From contig JAGVXP010000016.1 in assembly GCA_018303725.1 (NCBI GenBank), positions 1-32,102 on the forward strand: a stretch of 32,102 nucleotides of DNA, read 5' to 3'. The DNA comes from Candidatus Woesearchaeota archaeon. Its GTDB lineage: Archaea; Nanobdellota; Nanobdellia; Woesearchaeales; JAGVXP01. Positions 10,557 to 19,624 of the stretch are shown piece after piece (within the stretch, counting starts at the first letter, position 1; each line of letters begins with the position of its first letter). Position numbers and translations under genes: made by a program. Below the pieces are notes generated by a model that saw only the letters and a list, made by a program, of their open reading frames with translations, did no database searches and was not told the DNA's origin.

Positions 10557-11129
10557 ATGGTTGCACCAACCAAATATTATGAAAAAGCAGTTCCTACCCC
10601 TACTTCTTTTATTAGATATAAAGGCATTTGGGATATGCAGGACCTTTACGAGTCAATGGCCGGCTGGTTCAGGCACAGAAAATATAAGCTTCATGAGAAA
10701 GTATATAAACACAAGCACCCAAGCCCCTTTGGGGTTGAGAGGCAGTATATATGGCAGGCCGAAAAGAAAGAAACAGATTATGAGCAGGTTATATATGATG
10801 TGTATATGCATACTTATGATGCGCACGACATCGAAGTTGTAATGCCTGATGGAGCCAAGAAAACATTCACAAAAGGCAGGATATGGATAGAGCTGAAGGT
10901 TGTTTTGAACTATGATTGGGAAGGGAGATGGAACGAGAAATTATTTTACAAATATCTTAAGGATTTTTACAACAAATATGTTGTTAGAAAAAAATTTACC
11001 CAGGGCTATGCGCCTAAGTTCAGGACTGAGCTGTATGAGCTGCAGAATTTGATTAAGGAACGCTTAAAGATGGAATCCAGAGGATTTGAGCAGAGATATA
11101 TGCCTGGCGTGCATGTGAGAACGGTTTAA
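10557..11129 (+). CDS. Tandem paralog 1 of an unrecognised family
   Basis: A 190-aa soluble, aromatic-rich protein without signal peptide or membrane segments. The pattern shared with the next three genes is an N-terminal strand and helix (RYKGIWDMQDLYESMAGWF), a Tyr/Lys-rich strand region (HEKVYKHKHPSPFG), YIWQAEKKETDY, then KKTFTKGRIWIELK, YDWEGRW and a helix ending DFYNKYVVRKK. No catalytic motif is apparent and I do not recognise the family; similar hypothetical proteins are my vague recollection from DPANN genomes only. 89 nt (10629-10717) are identical to paralog 2. It is first in a tight rightward array and probably cotranscribed with the next three. Confidence 0.85.
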   Translation: MVAPTKYYEKAVPTPTSFIRYKGIWDMQDLYESMAGWFRHRKYKLHEKVYKHKHPSPFGVERQYIWQAEKKETDYEQVIYDVYMHTYDAHDIEVVMPDGAKKTFTKGRIWIELKVVLNYDWEGRWNEKLFYKYLKDFYNKYVVRKKFTQGYAPKFRTELYELQNLIKERLKMESRGFEQRYMPGVHVRTV

Positions 11130-11148
11130 AACAACAAAAAATTAAGGT

Positions 11149-11718
11149 ATGATGATGGCCAAAGAATTATTGCACGATTTAAAATGCACAACTCCTACAG
11201 CCTATTTGAGGTATACCGGAATCTGGGATATGCAGGACCTTTACGAGTCAATGGCCGGCTGGTTCAGGCACAGAAAATATAAGCTTCATGAGAAAGTATA
11301 TAAACACAAGCATCCAAGCCCTTTTGGGGTTGAAAGGCAGTATATATGGCAGGCCGAGAGAAAGGAGGAGGATTATGTCCAGTTTGTTATTGACGTTTAC
11401 TACCACACATACGATGCGCACGACATTGAGGTTGTAATGCCTGATGGAGCCAAGAAAACTTTGACAAAAGGAAGGCTTTGGATGGAATTCAAGGGTTATG
11501 TGAGGTATGACTGGGAAGGTAGATGGGAGGATAGCAGGTTTTATAGGAGCTTAAGGAGCTTTTACAATAAATATATAATAAAAAAGAAATTAGAGGGCAC
11601 ATGGTGGGATTTAGTGTGGTACAGGGAAATACATAAGTTATACCAAATGATTAAGGAAAAATTAAAATTGCAGTCAATGGGGTATGAGCATAGGTACTGG
11701 ACAGGAGTCCACAGGTAA
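11149..11718 (+). CDS. Tandem paralog 2 of the unrecognised family
   Basis: A 189-aa protein starting at the first of three consecutive ATG-type codons (ATGATGATGGCC), 19 nt after paralog 1; an AAGGT motif just upstream is a weak Shine-Dalgarno. The central region (about residues 24-75 and 84-105) is almost identical to paralog 1, including HEKVYKHKHPSPFGVERQYI and AHDIEVVMPDGAKKT, while the first 15 and last 50 residues have diverged strongly (for example GTWWDLVWYREIHKLY). This mosaic looks like recent gene conversion rather than a uniformly recent duplication. Function unknown. Confidence 0.85.
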   Translation: MMMAKELLHDLKCTTPTAYLRYTGIWDMQDLYESMAGWFRHRKYKLHEKVYKHKHPSPFGVERQYIWQAERKEEDYVQFVIDVYYHTYDAHDIEVVMPDGAKKTLTKGRLWMEFKGYVRYDWEGRWEDSRFYRSLRSFYNKYIIKKKLEGTWWDLVWYREIHKLYQMIKEKLKLQSMGYEHRYWTGVHR

Positions 11719-11723
11719 TCAAA

Positions 11724-12260
11724 ATGTCTGAATTAAGAATATTAGTTGACCATATGAAGCTTGAATATACAGGCCTTTTTGATGTTAATAACTTGTTTAG
11801 GACCATTGATGCCTGGCTTAAGGAAAGGGCTTTTGAAAAAAGGACAGATATGAATCAGGAATTAAACACACCAACAGGGAAATTTTTGGAATGGGTAATC
11901 GCCCCATGGAAGAAGGTGAGTGATTATACAAGGTACATAATAAAAATTAGAATGCTGGTTTATGACCTCAATACAGTAGAAGCTGTTAAGGACAAAAAGA
12001 AGCTTAAGCTGGGCCAAGGCAGGGTTTTGATGTATTTCGATGCTTATATTGAGCATGATTATGAGCATAGATGGGATAGAACCCCAATGCTTATCTTTTT
12101 AAGGACAATGTATGATAAATTCATTTATAGAACATACACTGAAAGATTTGAGCATAGATTGGTTTATGATACGCATTATCTATTTGATGTTGTTGAAACC
12201 TTTTTTAATATGTACAAGCAATACAGGCCTGTGTCAAAAGTGCCTCATTTTGTGGATTAA
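11724..12260 (+). CDS. Tandem paralog 3 of the unrecognised family (diverged)
   Basis: A 178-aa protein starting 5 nt after the stop of paralog 2. It keeps the family skeleton: LEYTGLFDVNNLFRTIDAWL, KFLEWVIAPWKKVSDYTRYI, KLKLGQGRVLMYFDAYIEHD, YEHRWDRTP and FLRTMYDKFIYRTY. Compared with paralogs 1 and 2 only the glycine, tryptophan and aromatic positions and helix spacing are retained, so this is an older duplication. Tight spacing implies cotranscription and perhaps a heteromeric assembly of the four proteins (inference). Confidence 0.83.
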   Translation: MSELRILVDHMKLEYTGLFDVNNLFRTIDAWLKERAFEKRTDMNQELNTPTGKFLEWVIAPWKKVSDYTRYIIKIRMLVYDLNTVEAVKDKKKLKLGQGRVLMYFDAYIEHDYEHRWDRTPMLIFLRTMYDKFIYRTYTERFEHRLVYDTHYLFDVVETFFNMYKQYRPVSKVPHFVD

Positions 12261-12261
12261 G

Positions 12262-12762
12262 ATGGTTGAAAAAAAGATAGTTGTGGACCAGTTAAGGCTT
12301 AGCTATAATGGCGTCTTTGATATTAATGATTTTTATAATGCAGTTGAGGATTGGATCCAAGAGAAGGGAATGGAAAAAGAAACAAAAAAGAAGCTGGAGC
12401 ATGTTATGCCCCATGGCAAAAAACTTGAGTGGTATATTGAATGCTGGAAAAGTGTTGCAAGTTACGCAAAGACTATTGTGAGGATGAGGGCCTTGTTTGA
12501 TGAAGTTAAAGAAGTTCAAATTGTAAAAAATAAATCCAAAAGAAGGCTAAACCAGGGAAAGGTTTTGATAATATTGGATGGTATCCTAGAGACCGACATA
12601 GAGGGGTCATGGCAGCAAAAGCCCCTTTTTTATTTCATGAGGGCCTTGGTTGACAAGTATATATGGAAATTCCATACAAACAAATATGAGGCACCCTTGA
12701 TAGATGAGGTGTATGACATGCACAAAACCCTGAAGAAGTTCTTTGCTAGGTATAATTATTAA
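12262..12762 (+). CDS. Tandem paralog 4 of the unrecognised family (diverged)
   Basis: A 166-aa protein. The start is the ATG one base after the stop of paralog 3; a longer reading upstream to 12112 would overlap paralog 3 by 150 nt and gives no family-like sequence, so it is rejected. Shared skeleton: LRLSYNGVFDINDFYNAVED, KKLEWYIECWKSVASYAKTI, RRLNQGKVLIILDG, DIEGSW, FYFMRALVDKYIWKFH and a C-terminal helical segment. The last gene of the array; the tRNA-Leu promoter follows directly. Function unknown. Confidence 0.83.
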   Translation: MVEKKIVVDQLRLSYNGVFDINDFYNAVEDWIQEKGMEKETKKKLEHVMPHGKKLEWYIECWKSVASYAKTIVRMRALFDEVKEVQIVKNKSKRRLNQGKVLIILDGILETDIEGSWQQKPLFYFMRALVDKYIWKFHTNKYEAPLIDEVYDMHKTLKKFFARYNY

Positions 12763-12778: not shown

Positions 12779-12820
12779 GGTTTCTTTTTTCTTTTATGAT
12801 ACCAGGCAATATGCGAGGGT

Positions 12821-12851
12821 AGTCTTTAAGCATCTGCTTATAGATCCTCAG
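12821..12851 (+). other. tRNA-Leu intron 1 (position 8/9, 31 nt)
   Basis: Central helix GAGG 12815-12818 with CCTC 12846-12849; bulges GT^A and AG^A. The intron arm GTCT/AGAT plus TAAGCA/TGCTTA closes the fold. Confidence 0.88.
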
Positions 12852-12867
12852 AGCGAAGCCTGGTCAA

Positions 12868-12919
12868 TTGAAAATCGAGGATTTTCAAAGCGTCTTTAAA
12901 ATCTTCGATTTTAGACCAA
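12868..12919 (+). other. tRNA-Leu intron 2 (position 21/22, 52 nt)
   Basis: Central helix GGTC 12862-12865 with GACC 12914-12917; bulges AA^T and AA^A. The intron carries a 15-bp stem, 12871-12885 with 12898-12912 (one G-U). Confidence 0.9.
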
Positions 12920-12935
12920 ACGCGCAGGACTTAAG

Positions 12936-12970
12936 TTATTCATGATGGAGCACCCATCTGTAAATGGGAT
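12936..12970 (+). other. tRNA-Leu intron 3 (canonical 37/38, 35 nt)
   Basis: Central helix CTTA 12930-12933 with TGGG 12965-12968 (two G-U pairs); inner hairpin GATGG/CCATC. Confidence 0.85.
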
Positions 12971-13057
12971 ATCCTGTTCCTTAGTGGATTCGTGGGTTCG
13001 AATCCCATCCCTCGCATTTTTTCTTACAAAAAATGCTTTATGGATTTGAACCCCCTA

Positions 13058-13576
13058 TCACTTTTCCAATTTATTTAGAAATCTCTTACTTCCCTCTCCA
13101 ATTTTTATTTCTGCAGAATTAAAATTTTTAATTAAAACATCATACCTCCAGTCATCATAAAACCAGATAATAACGATGAAAACTTCAAAACCATTTTTTA
13201 TTGCTTTTTTATAAATTCCCAGTTCTTTACTTGTTACATCTACAATATAAGCTTCTTTTCTTAAGTTGGGGTAATAGCTTCTCGCTTTTATTTCAAACAA
13301 CTGTAAATTTATCAATTTGTAATTTTCACTCTTGAATCTAAATGCATCAATAGAGAACCAATTTTCTTTTAAAAAATGTTTTATCTCTTCAGATAAATAT
13401 CCGAAAGGGAATTGTTGGTCTAGATAGTCTTTCTTATATTCCCTCCTTAAATGTAGGTAAGGTATTCTGTATTTTGCTATAACTTCTCCTACTTCAGATT
13501 TTATTTTTATATTCTGTCTTCTTAGATCATATTTCCCCATATTTAATGGAATCTTTTTATTGATATCAAAAACCAT
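13058..13576 (-). CDS. Hypothetical protein, possible PD-(D/E)xK nuclease fold
   Basis: A 172-aa soluble protein. Residues Asp77 (SIDAFRF) and Glu95-x-Lys97 (LQLFEIKAR) have the order and spacing of a PD-(D/E)xK nuclease active site, each at the end of a hydrophobic strand, followed by a helix and a strand (GFEVFIVIIWFYDD). This is suggestive, not proof. N-terminal residues are basic and would suit nucleic-acid binding. It stands alone on the minus strand, with an AT-rich promoter region at about 13605-13620 (ATTTAAATA on the plus strand). No methyltransferase or other restriction-modification partner is next to it. It could be a repair or RNA-processing nuclease, or an unrelated orphan. Confidence 0.7.
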   Translation of the reverse strand: MVFDINKKIPLNMGKYDLRRQNIKIKSEVGEVIAKYRIPYLHLRREYKKDYLDQQFPFGYLSEEIKHFLKENWFSIDAFRFKSENYKLINLQLFEIKARSYYPNLRKEAYIVDVTSKELGIYKKAIKNGFEVFIVIIWFYDDWRYDVLIKNFNSAEIKIGEGSKRFLNKLEK

Positions 13577-13673
13577 TTTAATTAAATTGGATGATAAACT
13601 TGGTAATATTTAAATATAATCATTTATAACCTCATGCAGTTAGGGTATCTTAAAGAAAAATATAAGAAATGGT

Positions 13674-14222
13674 CTATGAGAAAAAACTTGCGATTCCTAT
13701 TAGTATAAACAAGGTTCCTGATATTATGGAGATAGTTTTTCTGTTTATTTTCTGCGTTATAAACTTGCCGAGGTAAACAGCTATTATTGACAGAACAGTT
13801 AAAGCGGACACAACACTAATCAGAACTAAAATTGGGTTAAATCTAGTGGCAAACAAGCCAGCTGCTATCTGTGTTTTGTCTCCCATTTCTAAGAGGAGGA
13901 TTAAACTAAAACCAGAGATAAATGGATTTTTAAGGTGATATTTTTCCCTTTCCTTTTTATGATTAATTAATGTTACAACCCCAAAAATGATGAAGATAAT
14001 GCCAGCCCCGCTTTTTATATATCCCATTGGGATTACCTTTATTATGAAATCCCCAAAAACTACTGCTATCCCATCTGATACTATAACTGCTAAAACAATC
14101 CCCAAAAGCAGCTGCAAATGTTTTTTTGTTTTCGTGGCTAAGCCAAGGATAGCTAACTGGGTTTTATCCCCAAATTCAGCTATGGCTATTGTCAGGAATG
14201 GCAATAAGATATCTTGAATCAT
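13674..14222 (-). CDS. UPF0016/GDT1-type cation transporter (Mn2+/Ca2+)
   Basis: A 182-aa membrane protein with about six helices arranged as two repeats. Each repeat carries the family signature E-x-G-D-(K/R)-T: EFGDKTQ near residue 16 and EMGDKTQ near residue 112. The family (TMEM165/GDT1, bacterial MneA) moves Mn2+ or Ca2+ across membranes, often as an exporter. Size is typical for prokaryotic two-repeat members. In an archaeon with AglB this could supply or control divalent metal for glycosylation (inference). It is transcribed leftward from an AT-rich region at 14240-14260, divergent from tRNA-Thr. Confidence 0.92.
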   Translation of the reverse strand: MIQDILLPFLTIAIAEFGDKTQLAILGLATKTKKHLQLLLGIVLAVIVSDGIAVVFGDFIIKVIPMGYIKSGAGIIFIIFGVVTLINHKKEREKYHLKNPFISGFSLILLLEMGDKTQIAAGLFATRFNPILVLISVVSALTVLSIIAVYLGKFITQKINRKTISIISGTLFILIGIASFFS

Positions 14223-14307
14223 ACATCGGATTGGGATAAATGTTTATATTTAAATTTATTGCAAATTTGATAATAGACTACTAATCAAATTTATAATAAC
14301 TTTAGCA

Positions 14308-14319
14308 ATATTTAAATAC
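14308..14319 (+). promoter_or_regulatory. TATA box of tRNA-Thr
   Basis: ATATTTAAATAC, about 25-30 nt before the tRNA 5' end. Confidence 0.7.
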
Positions 14320-14342
14320 AATTATCCAATTCTGAAGCTTAT

Positions 14343-14463
14343 GCCTCTGTGGCTCAGTGGTAGAGCGATACCTTGGTAACTTTAAGCTTTGCTTTAAGGC
14401 TTAGAACGAGCGAAGCGAAGTTCAAAGAGGTATAGGTCGCGAGTTCGATTCTCGCCAGAGGCT
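14343..14463 (+). tRNA. tRNA-Thr(GGU) with one BHB intron
   Basis: Acceptor GCCTCTG/CAGAGGC, discriminator T14463; D arm GCTC-AGTGGTA-GAGC; anticodon stem ATACC/GGTAT; loop TTGGTAA (anticodon GGT, 14375-14377); T arm GCGAG-TTCGATT-CTCGC. The intron at 37/38 is 14379-14427 (49 nt): central helix TTGG/TCAA (14373-14376/14422-14425) and bulges TA^A and AG^A. The intron contains nested hairpins, including the mini-hairpin sequence GCGAAGC (14410-14416). Mature length 72 nt. Confidence 0.95.
14379..14427 (+). other. tRNA-Thr intron (canonical 37/38, 49 nt)
   Basis: BHB as described for tRNA-Thr; the inner helix begins CTT/AAG. Confidence 0.88.
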
Positions 14464-14505
14464 TAACCAATAAATTTAAGAATAAGGCTGGGTATTATAA
14501 TAAAA

Positions 14506-15024
14506 ATGAAAAAAAGACTAATGCTGTTTTCCATTTTTTTGATTTTAGCTGCTGGATGCGCAAAAGAGGTTGAAGTTTTTAGGTATGTCTGCCCTGATGG
14601 GGCTGTTGTTAGCGATTCTGGCAAGTGTTTAACAGCCGAGAAAGATGCTGAAAAACAAGGCGAATCCTACCCAGTTGAGATAAAGAATAAAGCAAATTTG
14701 GATGTTAAAATAATAAGAACGTCTGTAATCAAGGAATATGACTCCACTAAAGGCGATTTTATAAGATTACAGGTTGATGCCCAGAACACCCAAGATTATG
14801 ATGGTTACCTTTATGTCAAAGCAAGTTGTTTAAGAAGGGATGAAGACGGGGATGTTATACTGAATGAGGTTAATTATAAAGAGATAGGTGTTATTGAGAA
14901 AACATGGTTTATTGAGGGGAATGAAGTTGCTCCTTTCATAGCAGAAGGATGTTTTGAAAAAGATGTTGAAAAAACAGACAAAGTTAAGGTGGATGAGGTT
15001 TACGCTTATAGATACAAATACTGA
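14506..15024 (+). CDS. Small lipoprotein of unknown function
   Basis: A 172-aa protein with a short basic start (MKKR), a hydrophobic core and a lipobox LILAAGC (Cys18), so probably a lipid-anchored extracytoplasmic protein. The mature part contains YVCPDGAVVSDSGKC, a Cys-bracketed motif seen in other archaeal surface proteins, then a beta-rich domain (VDAQNTQDYDGYLYVKASCL) resembling a FxLYD/DUF-type immunoglobulin-like fold. Function unknown. It is flanked by tRNA-Thr and, 8 nt downstream, tRNA-Val, so the tRNA-Val primary transcript may extend from this gene. Confidence 0.8.
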   Translation: MKKRLMLFSIFLILAAGCAKEVEVFRYVCPDGAVVSDSGKCLTAEKDAEKQGESYPVEIKNKANLDVKIIRTSVIKEYDSTKGDFIRLQVDAQNTQDYDGYLYVKASCLRRDEDGDVILNEVNYKEIGVIEKTWFIEGNEVAPFIAEGCFEKDVEKTDKVKVDEVYAYRYKY

Positions 15025-15069
15025 TATGATATGGGCCTGTGGTCTAGCGGTTATGACGTCACCTCGACA

Positions 15070-15116
15070 AGGGACATTAAATTTGCGTAGCAAATTTATG
15101 GATGTTCCCATTGAAA
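15070..15116 (+). other. tRNA-Val intron 1 (37/38, 47 nt)
   Basis: The inner stem GGGA/TCCC then CAT/ATG leads to a perfect hairpin TAAATTTGC-GTA-GCAAATTTA (15077-15097). Confidence 0.88.
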
Positions 15117-15138
15117 TGGTGAAGGTCCCCGGTTCGAG

Positions 15139-15167
15139 TTGGAAGGCAAAATTTGGTTCCACGAAGG
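15139..15167 (+). other. tRNA-Val intron 2 (59/60, T loop, 29 nt)
   Basis: Central helix TTCG 15133-15136 with CGAA 15162-15165, bulges AG^T and GG^T, intron stem TGGAA/TTCCA. Perfect 4-3-4 BHB geometry. Confidence 0.9.
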
Positions 15168-15192
15168 TCCGGGCAGGCCCATTTATAATAAG

Positions 15193-15202
15193 ATTTAAAT
15201 AA
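15193..15202 (+). promoter_or_regulatory. TATA box of the AI-2E permease/deoA operon
   Basis: ATTTAAATAA, predicting a start near 15220, just before the Shine-Dalgarno GAGGTG at 15225-15230. Confidence 0.65.
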
Positions 15203-15238
15203 TAAAGTGGATTTATACAAAAAAGAGGTGCATTAAAA

Positions 15239-16306
15239 ATCAAATCAAAGCATTACTCAACTTTTTTATTTGTAATCCTATTCTTAGCTATTCTTGTTGT
15301 TGCCTTTTTGATAGTCAAACCCTTTATTAAACCCATTTTGGCAAGCGTTATCATATCCTACATTTTTTATCCTGTTTACAAATTTTTTTATAGTAAAATG
15401 AAGAAAAAAAATTTAGCCGCGCTTATAGTATCCCTACTCATAATACTGCTGATAACTGCCCCACTTTTCTTTGTGATATACTCCTTATCTGATGAAATAA
15501 GCATTAGTTACGCTATTTTAAAACAAAGATTAGATTCGGGTGATTTATTCAATATGGGCTGTGATACCGCAGACAATCTGCTTTGTACTGTTTCAGACCA
15601 TGTAAAAAGGTTTATGCGCGACCCCCAAATAGAAAACCAGGTGAATTATATAATCAATCAGCTAAATACCCGCGCATCAACCAGAATTTCTGGTTTTATA
15701 TTCTCAATCCCAACAATAGTGGTAAACTTCTTTATTATGATATTTGTTGTCTTTTATCTTTTTAGGGATGGAGGAGAGATAATCCTGAAAATTAGGGGGA
15801 TATTGCCTATAGGGGAATCCCACCAGGGGAAACTATTCAAAAAATTTAATGATGTTACCTTTGCTGTTGTCTATGGAAATATCTTCGTTGCATTAATACA
15901 AGGCATTTTAGGCGGTTTGGGGTTTTTCCTTTTTGGGATAAATTCCCCTATCTTAGGCGGAATATTGATAGCCTTTGCAGCTTTAATACCTTATGTTGGC
16001 ACAGTAATAATATGGCTGCCTGTAGCTTTGTTGTTTATATCTAAAGGGTATATACAAGGAGTGAATAGCTATATCATAAATGGTATATTGTTTTTGGTGT
16101 ATGGCCTATTCATCAGCTCTATTGATAATATTTTAAAGCCAAAAATAATTGGCGACAGAGCCAAGGTGCATCCTATCTTGGTTTTGTTGGGCGTGTTAGG
16201 CGGCTTGAAAATGTTTGGTTTTATTGGGATCATCATTGGACCAGTGGTTCTTGCATTGTTCACAACATTTATCAAATTATACAGAAAAGAACCAAATCTA
16301 AAATGA
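15239..16306 (+). CDS. AI-2E family (UPF0118/PerM) membrane permease, apparent ATC start
   Basis: Polytopic membrane protein of the AI-2E transporter family, with about eight helices: paired N-terminal helices, a central soluble loop (about 90-150), and a C-terminal half with GILGGLGFFLFGINSPILGG and the conserved IGPVVLALF end. Members export small molecules or ions; the substrate here cannot be inferred. The first standard start (TTG 15308) falls inside the first membrane helix. In-frame coding continues upstream (KSKHYSTFLFVILFLAILVV) to an ATC at 15239, 8 nt after GAGGTG. There is no in-frame ATG, GTG or TTG between, so an AUC start is likely. The 3' end overlaps the next gene by 4 nt (ATGA). 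Confidence 0.85.
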   Translation: MKSKHYSTFLFVILFLAILVVAFLIVKPFIKPILASVIISYIFYPVYKFFYSKMKKKNLAALIVSLLIILLITAPLFFVIYSLSDEISISYAILKQRLDSGDLFNMGCDTADNLLCTVSDHVKRFMRDPQIENQVNYIINQLNTRASTRISGFIFSIPTIVVNFFIMIFVVFYLFRDGGEIILKIRGILPIGESHQGKLFKKFNDVTFAVVYGNIFVALIQGILGGLGFFLFGINSPILGGILIAFAALIPYVGTVIIWLPVALLFISKGYIQGVNSYIINGILFLVYGLFISSIDNILKPKIIGDRAKVHPILVLLGVLGGLKMFGFIGIIIGPVVLALFTTFIKLYRKEPNLK

Positions 16307-17796
16307 AACTAAAAGTTAAGGACCTTGATATATCAACAGGGGGTCCTTTAATAGCTATTCTTAATTGGAAAGACTCTTCTGAATTGGATTTGCACTATCT
16401 AGACAGGATCAAGATAATAAAAGGGAAAAAGATTGAAACAGTTACTATTGATATAGCCCAAAGCAAGAAAATGGTCTCTTCCGGAAGGATAGGCCTTTTT
16501 GAAGAGGTTCTCCAATCTTTGAATTTAAAAGACGGCGATATTATCAAAATAATTCCTGCAAGAAAACCAACGTCCATTGATTATATAAAGAAAAAATTAG
16601 ACGGCTTTAAACTGGACAAAAAGGAAATAGAGCAAATAGTCTGGGATATTGTCAACAATAAATTATCAGATATAGAGCTGACTTATTTTGTTGCTGCCTG
16701 TTATGCAAATGAGCTTGATTTGGAAGAAACCACAATATTGACTAATGCTATGGCTAAATATGGCAATACATTAAAGTTAAAGAGATACCCTATTATGGAT
16801 AAACATAGCGTAGGCGGCGTGGCAGGCAACAGGACAACCATGATAATTGTGCCTATAATAGCTGCAGCTGGTCTGACTATACCAAAAACAAGCTCTAGAA
16901 GCATTACAAGTCCAGCTGGGACAGCAGATACAGTAGAAGTTTTGACCAATGTCAATATTTCCATCAATAAGATGAAAAGGATAGTTGAAAAAACAAATGG
17001 CTGTTTGGTTTGGGGCGGCGGATTAGATTTAGCTCCAGCTGATGACAAGATAATTAAAGTAGAAAAGCCATTGGCTATAGATGCTAAAAGCCAGTTATTA
17101 GCGTCTGTTATGGCAAAAAAGGCCAGTGTTTCTGCTACGCATCTTTTAGTTGATATTCCGAGCGGTAAAGGCTCTAAGATTAGCTCCAAAGAAAAGGCAA
17201 GAAAGCTAAAAGGGGATTTTATCAGCCTAGGCAAGGAATTAAGAATAAAAGTTAGGGTTATTATAACTGATGGCAAAGAGCCGATTGGCAACGGCATTGG
17301 CCCGGCTTTAGAAGCAAGAGACGTGCTCTGGATTTTGGGGAATGATAAAAGAGGACCCAAAGATTTAAGGATGAAGGCTTTGAAAATGGCAGGTTTAATG
17401 CTGGAGATGGGTGGCAAAGCGGGAAAGGGCAATGGGTTTAAATTAGCTTTGGATATATTGAAAAGCGGCAAGGCATACAAAAAAATAGTAGAGATAATAA
17501 AAGCACAGGGCGGCAGGGAAGTTGATCCCGATGGAATTGAATTGGCTCCTGTAACTTATGATTATTCGGCTTATAAAGATGGTGTTATTAAAGAGATTTC
17601 AAACAGGGCAATATCAAAAACAGCAAGAGTGGCTGGTGCTCCTCAAGACAAAGGAGCCGGGATTTATCTACGTAAGCATGTTGGCGATAAAGTAAAGAAA
17701 GGCGAGGCGCTATTTACTATTTACGCTCCTAACAAGGATAAGCTGGATTATGTCAAAGATGTTATTAAGGCTGTTGATGGGGTTGTTATCAGATAA
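16303..17796 (+). CDS. deoA: AMP phosphorylase (archaeal DeoA/thymidine phosphorylase family)
   Basis: A 497-aa protein. AMP phosphorylase converts AMP (and CMP, UMP) plus phosphate to base and ribose-1,5-bisphosphate, feeding the archaeal pathway through ribose-1,5-bisphosphate isomerase and type III RubisCO. Seen: an N-terminal archaeal extension domain (about 1-85), the glycosyl-transferase helical domain, the phosphate-binding DKHSVGGVAGNRTT and the phosphorylase signature region ITSPAGTADTVEVLT. The C-terminal domain is VAGAPQDKGAGIYLRKHVGD. Length (about 500) matches archaeal AMP phosphorylase rather than the roughly 440-aa bacterial thymidine phosphorylase. It is translationally coupled to the permease. 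Neither of the other two pathway enzymes is in the window. Confidence 0.93.
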   Translation: MKLKVKDLDISTGGPLIAILNWKDSSELDLHYLDRIKIIKGKKIETVTIDIAQSKKMVSSGRIGLFEEVLQSLNLKDGDIIKIIPARKPTSIDYIKKKLDGFKLDKKEIEQIVWDIVNNKLSDIELTYFVAACYANELDLEETTILTNAMAKYGNTLKLKRYPIMDKHSVGGVAGNRTTMIIVPIIAAAGLTIPKTSSRSITSPAGTADTVEVLTNVNISINKMKRIVEKTNGCLVWGGGLDLAPADDKIIKVEKPLAIDAKSQLLASVMAKKASVSATHLLVDIPSGKGSKISSKEKARKLKGDFISLGKELRIKVRVIITDGKEPIGNGIGPALEARDVLWILGNDKRGPKDLRMKALKMAGLMLEMGGKAGKGNGFKLALDILKSGKAYKKIVEIIKAQGGREVDPDGIELAPVTYDYSAYKDGVIKEISNRAISKTARVAGAPQDKGAGIYLRKHVGDKVKKGEALFTIYAPNKDKLDYVKDVIKAVDGVVIR

Positions 17797-17819
17797 TTCA
17801 ATTCTAGAAAAAATAGAAA

Positions 17820-17830
17820 AGTTTAAATAC
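17820..17830 (+). promoter_or_regulatory. TATA box of the MNT-HEPN pair
   Basis: AGTTTAAATAC, about 27 nt before ATG 17853, which favours that start over ATG 17832. Confidence 0.6.
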
Positions 17831-17852
17831 TATGTATGTTTATAGAATACAT

Positions 17853-18461
17853 ATGACTGCTGATAACATACAATTTACAAAGATTGAAATTCAGATAGCC
17901 AAATACCTGTTTAAGCACTATAAAGACAGATACAACCCCAGGCAGCTAGCCAGGATATTGAATATAAACCATGCCCATGCAAATAAGCTCTGTAACCTTC
18001 TTGCGGACAAGCAGCTTTTGATTAAGGAAAGTGTTGGAAACTCAGTTTACTTTTCATTCAATTATGATGGTAAGCTGGCTGTTAAGTTTATGGAGTATAT
18101 ACTAAATATGGAAGAGAAGGCCTTCCCGAAATGGCTGATTGTCCTTCTTCACAGCCTAAAAAAGTTCAAGCCATACATAGCGTTAGGGCTTGTCTTTGGC
18201 TCTTCTATAAGGACTAAAGATTACCATGATATAGACGTCCTTCTGGTGTATGAAAAGAATAGGGCAAAAGATATCAGCAAAGTAAAGGGAGAAATCAGGA
18301 AATCCCAACTGATAGAACAACCTATAAGGTATGTTGATATGACTGAAAAGGATATCCTGTCAAACAAAGATGATAAGGTTTTTTACAGCATCCTGTCAGA
18401 CAGCCTAATATTCTATAACGCTGAAAAATATGTTGGGTTGATTAAAAAATGCCACAGATAG
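17853..18461 (+). CDS. Winged-helix fused to MNT-type nucleotidyltransferase (antitoxin-like)
   Basis: A 202-aa protein. Residues about 5-70 form a winged helix-turn-helix (FTKIEIQIAKYLFKHY, PRQLARILNINHAHANKLCN, ADKQLLIKESVGNSVYF). Residues about 105-190 are a minimal nucleotidyltransferase with G116-S117 (LVFGSSIR) and D126-I-D128 (HDIDVLLVY). It overlaps the downstream HEPN gene by 13 nt. In the known MNT/HEPN toxin-antitoxin type, the nucleotidyltransferase neutralises the HEPN RNase by AMPylation; fusion to a DNA-binding domain would add operon autoregulation. That role is inference from arrangement. ATG 17832 is an alternative start but lies too close to the TATA box. Confidence 0.85.
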   Translation: MTADNIQFTKIEIQIAKYLFKHYKDRYNPRQLARILNINHAHANKLCNLLADKQLLIKESVGNSVYFSFNYDGKLAVKFMEYILNMEEKAFPKWLIVLLHSLKKFKPYIALGLVFGSSIRTKDYHDIDVLLVYEKNRAKDISKVKGEIRKSQLIEQPIRYVDMTEKDILSNKDDKVFYSILSDSLIFYNAEKYVGLIKKCHR

Positions 18462-18931
18462 ATAATCACCTGAAATGGTGCCTTAAAGACGCTAAAAGGT
18501 TGGTGAAAGTAAAGCCTGACGCGGAACTTGCACAAAAGCATGTCAAGAAATCAGAATATAATTATGGTGTCCTGCAGACGCTTGAAAGGCTCAAAATATA
18601 TGACTGGGCTTTGAATGTTGGATTTTATGCTATCTATCACTGTTTTTTGGCCATTTTGGCTAAGTATGGCTATCAATCCAGGAACCAAGCCTGCACAATA
18701 ACAGTTTTGCACACTTTGATAAATGAGAAGAAGATGGAGCTGGAAAAGGATTTGGTCACGCAGTTTGATACTCTAGACGTTGAGGAGAATATGGCAAGCC
18801 CCACTATAAGAGTGGAAAGGGAAGTTTCAACTTATGGTGTTGAGACAACTATAGATTTGGAACAGCTGAAAAAAATAAAAGAGCTAATTATCAAAGTGCA
18901 AAGAGAGACGATTAGGATACTAGGGGAATAG
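18449..18931 (+). CDS. HEPN-domain protein (toxin-like partner)
   Basis: A 160-aa all-helical protein of the HEPN superfamily: the long helix with YDWALNVGFYAIYHCFLAIL and the following GYQSRNQACTITVLHTLINE are typical of archaeal HEPN proteins. Many active HEPN RNases have R-x4-6-H; here the equivalent stretch is SRNQACTITVLH, where Arg-to-His spacing is longer, so RNase activity is uncertain. It overlaps the nucleotidyltransferase gene by 13 nt, which indicates translational coupling and a complex between the two products. It could also be a non-toxic nucleotide-binding partner. Confidence 0.82.
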   Translation: MPQIDNHLKWCLKDAKRLVKVKPDAELAQKHVKKSEYNYGVLQTLERLKIYDWALNVGFYAIYHCFLAILAKYGYQSRNQACTITVLHTLINEKKMELEKDLVTQFDTLDVEENMASPTIRVEREVSTYGVETTIDLEQLKKIKELIIKVQRETIRILGE

Positions 18932-18991
18932 GTTGTAAAAATGCACTATAATAGCTACTTTTTTTGTCATAAGGCAAAAGATTAAAGCAAA

Positions 18992-19001
18992 CTTTAAATA
19001 C
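18992..19001 (+). promoter_or_regulatory. TATA box of the zinc-ribbon membrane protein gene
   Basis: CTTTAAATAC, about 30 nt before TTG 19024 and 50 nt before ATG 19042. Confidence 0.6.
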
Positions 19002-19041
19002 TCTATTCTGTTAATACATTATATTGTTGGGGTTTGATAAT

Positions 19042-19452
19042 ATGAAAAAAACCAGTAATGAAAAAGAAGAGATTAAAGCATATTTTTGTAAAAATTGTGG
19101 TACAATAGTTGAAGAGAATGATACCAAGTGTCCCAAATGCAAAAACTTTCTTTCACAAGATAGAGCTACTACCTCAAAAGTAATCACAATAAAAGAATAT
19201 AGAGAAGGATTAGAAAAAGCAAGTCCTTCTTTTAAACTTAAAAAATGGTATCATTATTTATTTTATGTTCTAGGTTGGTTTAATGCTGGAAATCTAATAT
19301 TTTGGGTAACTTTATGGATAGCTAATTCCAGAGCTGGTGTGAGGTATGATAAATTTTTTAATCCTCGTGTAAACAAAGCGATTTTTATTTGGGGGATAAT
19401 CACTATAATAGGTTATATTATTGTTATTCTATTAATTTTTACTGTTGATTAA
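19042..19452 (+). CDS. Zinc-ribbon protein with two membrane helices
   Basis: A 136-aa protein (from ATG). An N-terminal zinc ribbon has two C-x2-C pairs (YFCKNCGTIV and TKCPKCKNFL, about residues 15-37). After a basic linker come two membrane helices (YLFYVLGWFNAGNLIFWVTL; IFIWGIITIIGYIIVILLIF). This zinc-ribbon-plus-membrane layout is common in archaea (zinc_ribbon_2 type); function unknown. Start choice is uncertain: TTG 19024 would fit a leaderless mRNA from the TATA box and adds MLGFDN, while ATG 19042 has GGGG upstream as a weak Shine-Dalgarno. Confidence 0.75.
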   Translation: MKKTSNEKEEIKAYFCKNCGTIVEENDTKCPKCKNFLSQDRATTSKVITIKEYREGLEKASPSFKLKKWYHYLFYVLGWFNAGNLIFWVTLWIANSRAGVRYDKFFNPRVNKAIFIWGIITIIGYIIVILLIFTVD

Positions 19453-19518
19453 AAAAGACTATATAAATAGGAGTATAAGCCAACTTATTAAATATGGCTT
19501 TACCCCATCATATCCCTA

Positions 19519-19624
19519 CGCCGCGACCCGGACTTTCATGCTATTACTATAGCTTTTGAACCGGGACATCCTTTCGGAAAATGGCTCTCAAGGCCATCGC
19601 AGTACCAGGTTGTGCCATCGCGGC
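19519..19624 (-). tRNA. tRNA-Ser(UGA) with an intron in the T loop
   Basis: On the minus strand: acceptor GCCGCGA/TCGCGGC (19624-19618/19526-19520), discriminator G, T8-G9, D arm, anticodon stem ATGGC/GCCAT with loop CTTGAGA (anticodon TGA, 19590-19588), long variable arm TTCC-GAAA-GGA (type II, as for Ser) and T stem CCCGG/CCGGG. The T loop TTCAAA..T is interrupted at 59/60 by a 22-nt intron (19533-19554), with central helix TTCA/TGAA and intron hairpin GCTAT/ATAGC. The plus-strand reading also folds as a closed multi-branch RNA, but this is simply the complement of the tRNA. Confidence 0.93.
19533..19554 (-). other. tRNA-Ser intron (59/60, T loop, 22 nt)
   Basis: Central helix TTCA (19560-19557) with TGAA (19538-19535); bulges AA^A and AG^T. 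Same position as intron 2 of tRNA-Val. Confidence 0.9.

Follow-up and report, generated by a model that had tools for sequence, protein, structure and literature searches.

Archaea that carry many tRNA introns at non-canonical positions or in relaxed bulge-helix-bulge (BHB) motifs are generally held to possess splicing endonucleases (EndA) of the (alpha-beta)2 or epsilon2 type, with a Crenarchaea-specific loop (CSL) or an ARMAN-specific loop (ASL), respectively, with which the introns have co-evolved (PMC6379350, PMC12397907). According to reviews, only these two types efficiently remove relaxed BHBs, the alpha4 enzymes being classed as narrow (PMC6379350), and non-canonical introns have been described as almost exclusively crenarchaeal (PMC3218864). 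Here we analyze the tRNA genes encoded in a 32,102-nucleotide stretch of DNA (the window) from a Candidatus Woesearchaeota archaeon (contig JAGVXP010000016.1 of assembly GCA_018303725.1), together with the introns and the EndA of the lineage to which it belongs. We consider it likely that these are functional, single-copy tRNA genes, the BHB introns of which have proliferated throughout the Woesearchaeota, and that the only type of EndA detected in this lineage, alpha, either has a broader specificity than its class would suggest or is helped.

The window is contig C32 of the assembly (G000 below; 1.30 Mb, 81% complete), and the DPANN affiliation that had been read from the window alone agrees with the assignment of the lineage to the Woesearchaeota. 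We employed a home-made spliced-tRNA finder that pairs a T-arm, either intact or interrupted by a BHB intron, with an acceptor stem to match and allows as many as three additional BHB introns, the removal of which must yield a cloverleaf; the input to the finder consists of tRNA shape and BHB geometry, with no junctions given in advance. An earlier version, in which the flanking helices had to be perfect, placed the Leu and Val introns wrongly, and the flank rule was then relaxed. The finder detected four tRNA genes in the window, all of them interrupted, with seven BHB introns in total (Table 1), thus recovering independently every gene, intron and junction of the original prediction, which had been made by inspection of the sequence. 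After splicing, the four tRNAs attain template scores of 34.1-36.3, compared with 33.3-35.9 for the uninterrupted tRNAs of G000, and no matches were obtained in Markov-1 randomized sequence of the same composition as the loci, in agreement with the proposal that intron removal restores standard tRNAs. Moreover, when the RNAs of the Val and Ser precursors were folded without constraints, the 59/60 BHB was part of the minimum-energy structure, with the T-stem, the 4-bp helix, the 3-nt bulges and the inner helix all in place.

Table 1. Coordinates of the tRNA genes and introns of the window and of the gene adjacent to endA
Feature	Exons or length	Position	Strand	Evidence or motif
tRNA-Leu(UAA) gene	four exons: 12813-12820, 12852-12867, 12920-12935, 12971-13016	12813..13016	+	spliced-tRNA finder, template score 34.2
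tRNA-Leu intron 8/9	31 nt	12821..12851	+	strict BHB: 4-bp central helix, outer 3 bp and inner 4 bp, both directly adjacent
tRNA-Leu intron 21/22 (D-loop)	52 nt	12868..12919	+	helix GGTC:GACC; relaxed, without adjacent outer helix
tRNA-Leu intron 37/38	35 nt	12936..12970	+	inner helix shifted 2 nt
tRNA-Thr(GGU) gene	14343-14378, 14428-14463	14343..14463	+	Rfam RF00005 59.6 bits; finder score 36.3
tRNA-Thr intron 37/38	49 nt	14379..14427	+	finder
tRNA-Val(GAC) gene	15033-15069, 15117-15138, 15168-15181	15033..15181	+	finder score 34.1
tRNA-Val intron 37/38	47 nt	15070..15116	+	finder
tRNA-Val intron 59/60 (T-loop)	29 nt	15139..15167	+	strict BHB: TTCG:CGAA pairing, outer helix = T-stem
tRNA-Ser(UGA) gene	19624-19555, 19532-19519	19519..19624	-	finder score 34.6
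tRNA-Ser intron 59/60 (T-loop)	22 nt	19533..19554	-	TTCA:TGAA pairing
endA-neighbor gene (homologues in L080-L158)		L029:497-1417 = G000:C9:62637-63554	-	conserved position

The claim that all seven introns share a 4-bp helix between 3-nt bulges holds with respect to the central helix, which is present in 7 of 7, but not with respect to its surroundings. When a motif is termed strict only if both flanking helices directly adjoin the 4-bp central helix (3-4-3), Leu 8/9 and Val 59/60 are the only strict introns in the window; the flanking helices of the other five are imperfect, with a shift of 1-2 nt in the inner helix of Leu, Thr and Val 37/38 and of Ser 59/60, and with no adjacent outer helix in Leu 21/22.

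Interruption of tRNA genes is not local to the window but is found throughout the genome. Among the 26 confidently decoded tRNAs of G000, 16 are interrupted by a total of 21 introns, in keeping with the expectation that most tRNAs would be, whereas the remaining 10 are intronless; thus, the statement that every tRNA is split is accurate for the window but not a rule for the genome, where the rate is about two thirds, and the uniformity of the window is partly luck. The 21 introns are located mainly at 37/38 (ten) and 59/60 (six), followed by 21/22 (three), with single introns at 8/9 and near 28/29. Several tRNAs, such as Gly-GCC and Ile-TAT, contain two introns each, and all decoded introns are of the cis type. 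At least five further G000 genes are interrupted but less certain, namely those for Val-TAC, initiator Met, Thr-TGT and His and a locus at C61:20157-20293. The latter, on the minus strand, retains an intact D-arm and T-arm, and its anticodon arm is not well restored by up to three BHB introns; possibly, this is the elongator tRNA-Met with introns around the loop.

Many archaea decode with a tRNA-Ile whose CAU anticodon is modified by agmatidine. In the Woesearchaeota order, we repeatedly observed a tRNA that reads as Ile and whose UAU anticodon is encoded in the genome (G000:C62:20675-20794, G010:1020942-1021089, and loci L172, L180, L287, L289 and L297).

A woesearchaeotal relative assembled as one contig of 1,301,350 bases (G010) shows the same trend: 15 of its 20 confident tRNAs contain introns, eleven of which are at 59/60. 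In this genome, ARAGORN reported 15 tRNAs, RF00005 yielded 24 matches at E<=10, and the BHB-aware finder detected about 27. In the window, because of the introns, ARAGORN detected none of the four tRNAs, and Rfam at the gathering score detected only Thr, missing Leu, Val and Ser. Standard tRNA finders therefore undercount in these genomes, some genes missed by ARAGORN and Rfam alike are recovered by the BHB-aware finder, and the apparent loss of tRNAs in DPANN archaea may be partly an artefact of annotation.

The most common non-canonical intron site in this lineage is position 59/60 in the T-loop. The nearly invariant T54-T55-C56-R57 of tRNAs pairs with YGAA at the 3' end of the intron and the T-stem provides the outer helix, so that almost any tRNA can host an intron ending in YGAA-NN. 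Among the decoded 59/60 introns, the outer helix is intact in 50 of 50 and the 3' end reads (T/C)GAA in 48 of 50. After a survey of the flanks of endA in named genomes yielded few tRNAs, we adopted the pattern GGGTTCRA-N(12-42)-YGAA-NN-YCCC, which describes a 59/60 BHB intron within a G/C T-stem, along with a decoy in which YGAA is changed to AAGY. The pattern was present in 174 of 241 genomes of the order, a very broad one with more than 80 families, and in 141 of 170 genera, as opposed to 12 of 241 genomes for the decoy, most of the matches to which still resemble 59/60 introns in another register. In a phylum-wide draw, the pattern was detected in 131 of 166 genomes of the same order, compared with 24 of the 113 genomes from elsewhere in the class (a tally made by hand), and in 23 of 30 fetched loci the finder placed the match inside a tRNA that could be decoded and that carries a 59/60 intron.

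Given that these genomes are mostly metagenome-assembled and that standard tools miss many of the tRNAs, the interrupted genes could be thought of as decaying pseudogenes or assembly artefacts. We regard this explanation as highly improbable because no other copies of these needed tRNAs were found in the assembly, the spliced forms are complete cloverleaves, the introns preserve the pairing required for excision, and the T-loop motif recurs in the great majority of the genera. Intact second copies of the four window tRNAs, the finding that the original prediction had named as counter-evidence, were looked for in the 81% complete assembly, and none was found.

Comparison of the introns with one another indicates that they have been copied between tRNA genes. 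When introns from different tRNAs but at one and the same position are compared, 17 pairs score at least 24, compared with 0 of 1,601 shuffled comparisons, although a few of the 17 involve the same isoacceptor in different genomes and could be vertically inherited. The 21/22 introns of Leu-TAA in the window and of Glu-TTC on contig C62 score 70 with a shared flank, against a shuffled maximum of 28; a pattern built from these two introns has exactly two matches in the 241 genomes, both in G000, and a diverged third copy is present in a tRNA-Leu of G166. In G010, one 59/60 intron is common to Arg-TCG, Glu-TTC and Ile-TAT. Furthermore, adjacent tRNA-Asp and tRNA-Lys genes in G302:C42 (L320:484-706), a genome of a sister order outside the Woesearchaeota order, contain 32-nt T-loop introns that differ at two positions, the result of a recent copying event. 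Such near-identity of introns in different tRNAs, which argues for copying between tRNA genes, was termed intron transposition in Thermoproteales by Fujishima and colleagues (reviewed in PMC4090602).

With regard to the endonuclease, the presence of relaxed motifs had led to the prediction of a heterotetrameric or epsilon-type EndA. This prediction is not supported: G000 encodes one detectable EndA, a protein of 186 amino acids (aa) with a single PF02778 plus PF01974 unit, and neither a PF01974 search nor, at E<=10, a profile built from 23 relatives detected a second homologue in this genome. The best 80 relatives of this EndA in named genomes come almost exclusively from Woesearchaeota, some of them labelled Nanoarchaeota or unclassified archaeon. 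EndA matches were obtained in 108 of 117 genomes of the same order, nearly always exactly one per genome, including G010. Three genomes have two matches, the second one in G037 and G115 being a fragment at a contig end; G035 has two full copies of the catalytic type (L071 and L072), on different contigs, which could reflect paralogy or contamination. Across 50 aligned woesearchaeotal loci (two of them listed twice), the CSL insertion between 'YG' and 'LSL', which is present in Sulfolobus tokodaii 2CV8, is absent, as are the ASL and the ARMAN-2 arrangement, whereas the catalytic Y122, H132 and K163 are invariant. The best structural match of the single-chain AlphaFold model (pLDDT 88) is the Methanocaldococcus jannaschii enzyme 1A79, aligned end to end with TM 0.85/0.92, 1.8 A and 35% identity. 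The PF01974 search, the 23-sequence profile and the structure comparison thus led us to reject both alternative architectures: an (alpha-beta)2 enzyme, for which there is neither a second structural subunit nor a Crenarchaea-specific loop with its conserved Lys, and an epsilon2 enzyme, which needs three fused units of about 390 aa and an ASL, as opposed to the single unit of 186 aa. By sequence criteria, then, the G000 protein is an EndA of the alpha type, that is, a single subunit of about 180 aa with N- and C-domains and a catalytic Tyr/His/Lys triad, and would probably function as a homotetramer. An RtcB ligase is also encoded in G000.

The predicted substrates of this enzyme are, by motif calls from sequence, about half relaxed BHBs; the relaxed motifs presumed in the original prediction do exist here. 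Among 100 introns in confident tRNAs of G000 and relatives, strict motifs account for 26 of the 50 at 59/60, 16 of the 35 at 37/38 and 3 of the 9 located in the D-loop. Because 26 of the 50 T-loop introns form strict BHBs, a non-canonical position alone does not demand a relaxed motif. These same proportions of strict 3-4-3 motifs at 59/60 and 37/38 could be taken to mean that this is a typical, narrow alpha4 enzyme and that the relaxed motifs are register errors or else rescued by the tRNA body so as to be near-canonical in practice; indeed, the alpha'2 enzyme of Archaeoglobus fulgidus processes a bulge-helix-loop 37/38 intron in a full-length pre-tRNA (PMC6379350). We find this explanation rather unlikely in view of the 21/22 introns of Leu, Glu and Gln, which lack an adjacent outer helix, and of the 37/38 intron of Leu-GAG, which is only 13 nt long and has almost no inner helix.

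A second way to account for broad specificity is an alpha EndA working with an unrecognized partner, either a highly diverged beta subunit or the product of the gene located directly downstream of endA (Table 1). The latter protein, of 306 aa, belongs to no Pfam or other known family; in 66 of 80 named woesearchaeotal loci, its gene is no more than 2.5 kb from endA, often at a distance of 20-110 bp and on the same strand. Its structural model combines a Zalpha-like winged helix with a C-terminal restriction endonuclease-like domain (Mrr/MspJI). This persistent association, the combination of a winged helix with a nuclease fold, and the fact that known broad EndAs consist of two unlike units all speak for a partner. 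Nevertheless, we judge it unlikely, and slightly more so than a narrow enzyme, given that the profile search revealed no second EndA homologue in G000. A hidden EndA beta subunit in the form of the 306-aa protein was considered and rejected, as the matches listed for its fold are to MspJI-type nucleases and winged-helix regulators and include no EndA subunit. The next gene in the endA cluster of G000 we take, by eye, to encode FEN1; hence the adjacency may reflect a role of the neighbor in DNA repair, and we consider this protein only a candidate splicing partner.

We therefore return to functional, interrupted genes served by an alpha-only EndA as the best explanation. BHB motifs would form in the transcripts, both junctions would be cut by the single alpha-type EndA, presumably as a homotetramer, and the exons would be ligated by RtcB. 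In the T-loop, T54-U55-C56-R57 would form the central helix with the YGAA of the intron end and the T-stem would be the outer helix, allowing introns to fit into almost any tRNA. The introns have moved as copies from one tRNA gene to another, perhaps through reverse splicing followed by retro-copying. With relaxed motifs making up about half of the total, an EndA lacking both loops would need either assistance or a broader cleavage specificity than that of the M. jannaschii enzyme. More tentatively, and with less confidence than an even chance would warrant, we suggest that this could represent a further route to broad splicing, in which an alpha-only EndA devoid of the CSL and ASL was widened through changes in its own active site or through the winged-helix/nuclease-fold neighbor, and the T-loop became a universal landing site for introns spreading across the order.

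Several points weigh against this explanation. The M. jannaschii-type alpha4 enzyme is reported to be narrow, in conflict with the relaxed motifs described here (PMC6379350). The cut registers are uncertain in Arg-TCT, initiator Met, Val-TAC 37/38, His and the tRNA at C61:20157-20293, and with a home-made finder some of the 'relaxed' calls may be wrong registers. Finally, the G000 assembly is only 81% complete.

Other features of the window include tandem paralogous open reading frames of about 180-215 aa at 10557-12762 (10557-11129, 11149-11718, 11724-12260 and 12112-12762), the first two of which have the near-identical stretch RHRKYKLHEKVYKHKHPSPFGVERQYIWQAE in common, and, at 16303-17796, a gene for AMP phosphorylase (NCBIfam TIGR03327, above the cut-off), which acts in the archaeal nucleoside/RuBisCO pathway.

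The constituents of this system are already known in kind, namely BHB introns, multiple introns per tRNA, position 59/60 and intron transposition. As far as the open literature shows, the new aspects are the scale of intron proliferation in Woesearchaeota, its concentration in the T-loop and the accompanying single, loop-less alpha EndA; we found no account of woesearchaeotal tRNA introns in a search that did not cover the main survey of EndA/intron co-evolution (Kaneta 2018), so that priority is uncertain. A large DPANN order with dense introns at multiple positions and a plain alpha EndA breaks the correlation between introns and EndA type, which can now be put to a direct test using a single small protein and synthetic precursors.

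Among the characterized systems, that of Nanoarchaeum equitans, also a member of DPANN, includes a catalytic EndA subunit (3IEY_A) that is among the closest in sequence to the woesearchaeotal protein. However, N. equitans has a two-subunit EndA (NEQ205 and NEQ261), in which the structural subunit is a separate protein, and trans-spliced split tRNAs, whereas here no second subunit was found and the introns are in cis. ARMAN-2 (Micrarchaeum), likewise an ultrasmall archaeon, also has a diverse set of tRNA introns as well as relaxed BHBs (PMC12397907) but employs an epsilon2 fusion of about 390 aa with three units, in contrast to the one-unit enzyme of about 186 aa without the ASL. The introns themselves resemble those of Thermoproteales (Pyrobaculum and relatives), where individual tRNAs carry multiple introns, many non-canonical positions are occupied, 59/60 among them, and different tRNAs have near-identical introns, attributed to transposition (PMC4090602); the proposed resemblance in intron density is supported by the comparison of 0.84 introns per tRNA in that group (PMC8450103) with 21 introns in 26 confident tRNAs here. 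Unlike Thermoproteales, the lineage analyzed here belongs to a DPANN phylum, shows a strong bias toward a single non-canonical site, 59/60, and has a single alpha-type EndA without the CSL instead of an (alpha-beta)2 enzyme that possesses it. Conversely, the enzyme itself most resembles the alpha4 EndA of M. jannaschii (1A79), with a single subunit of similar size, the same fold and the same catalytic Tyr/His/Lys; yet the latter is classed as narrow (PMC6379350), whereas Woesearchaeota have many introns that are non-canonical in position and relaxed in motif.

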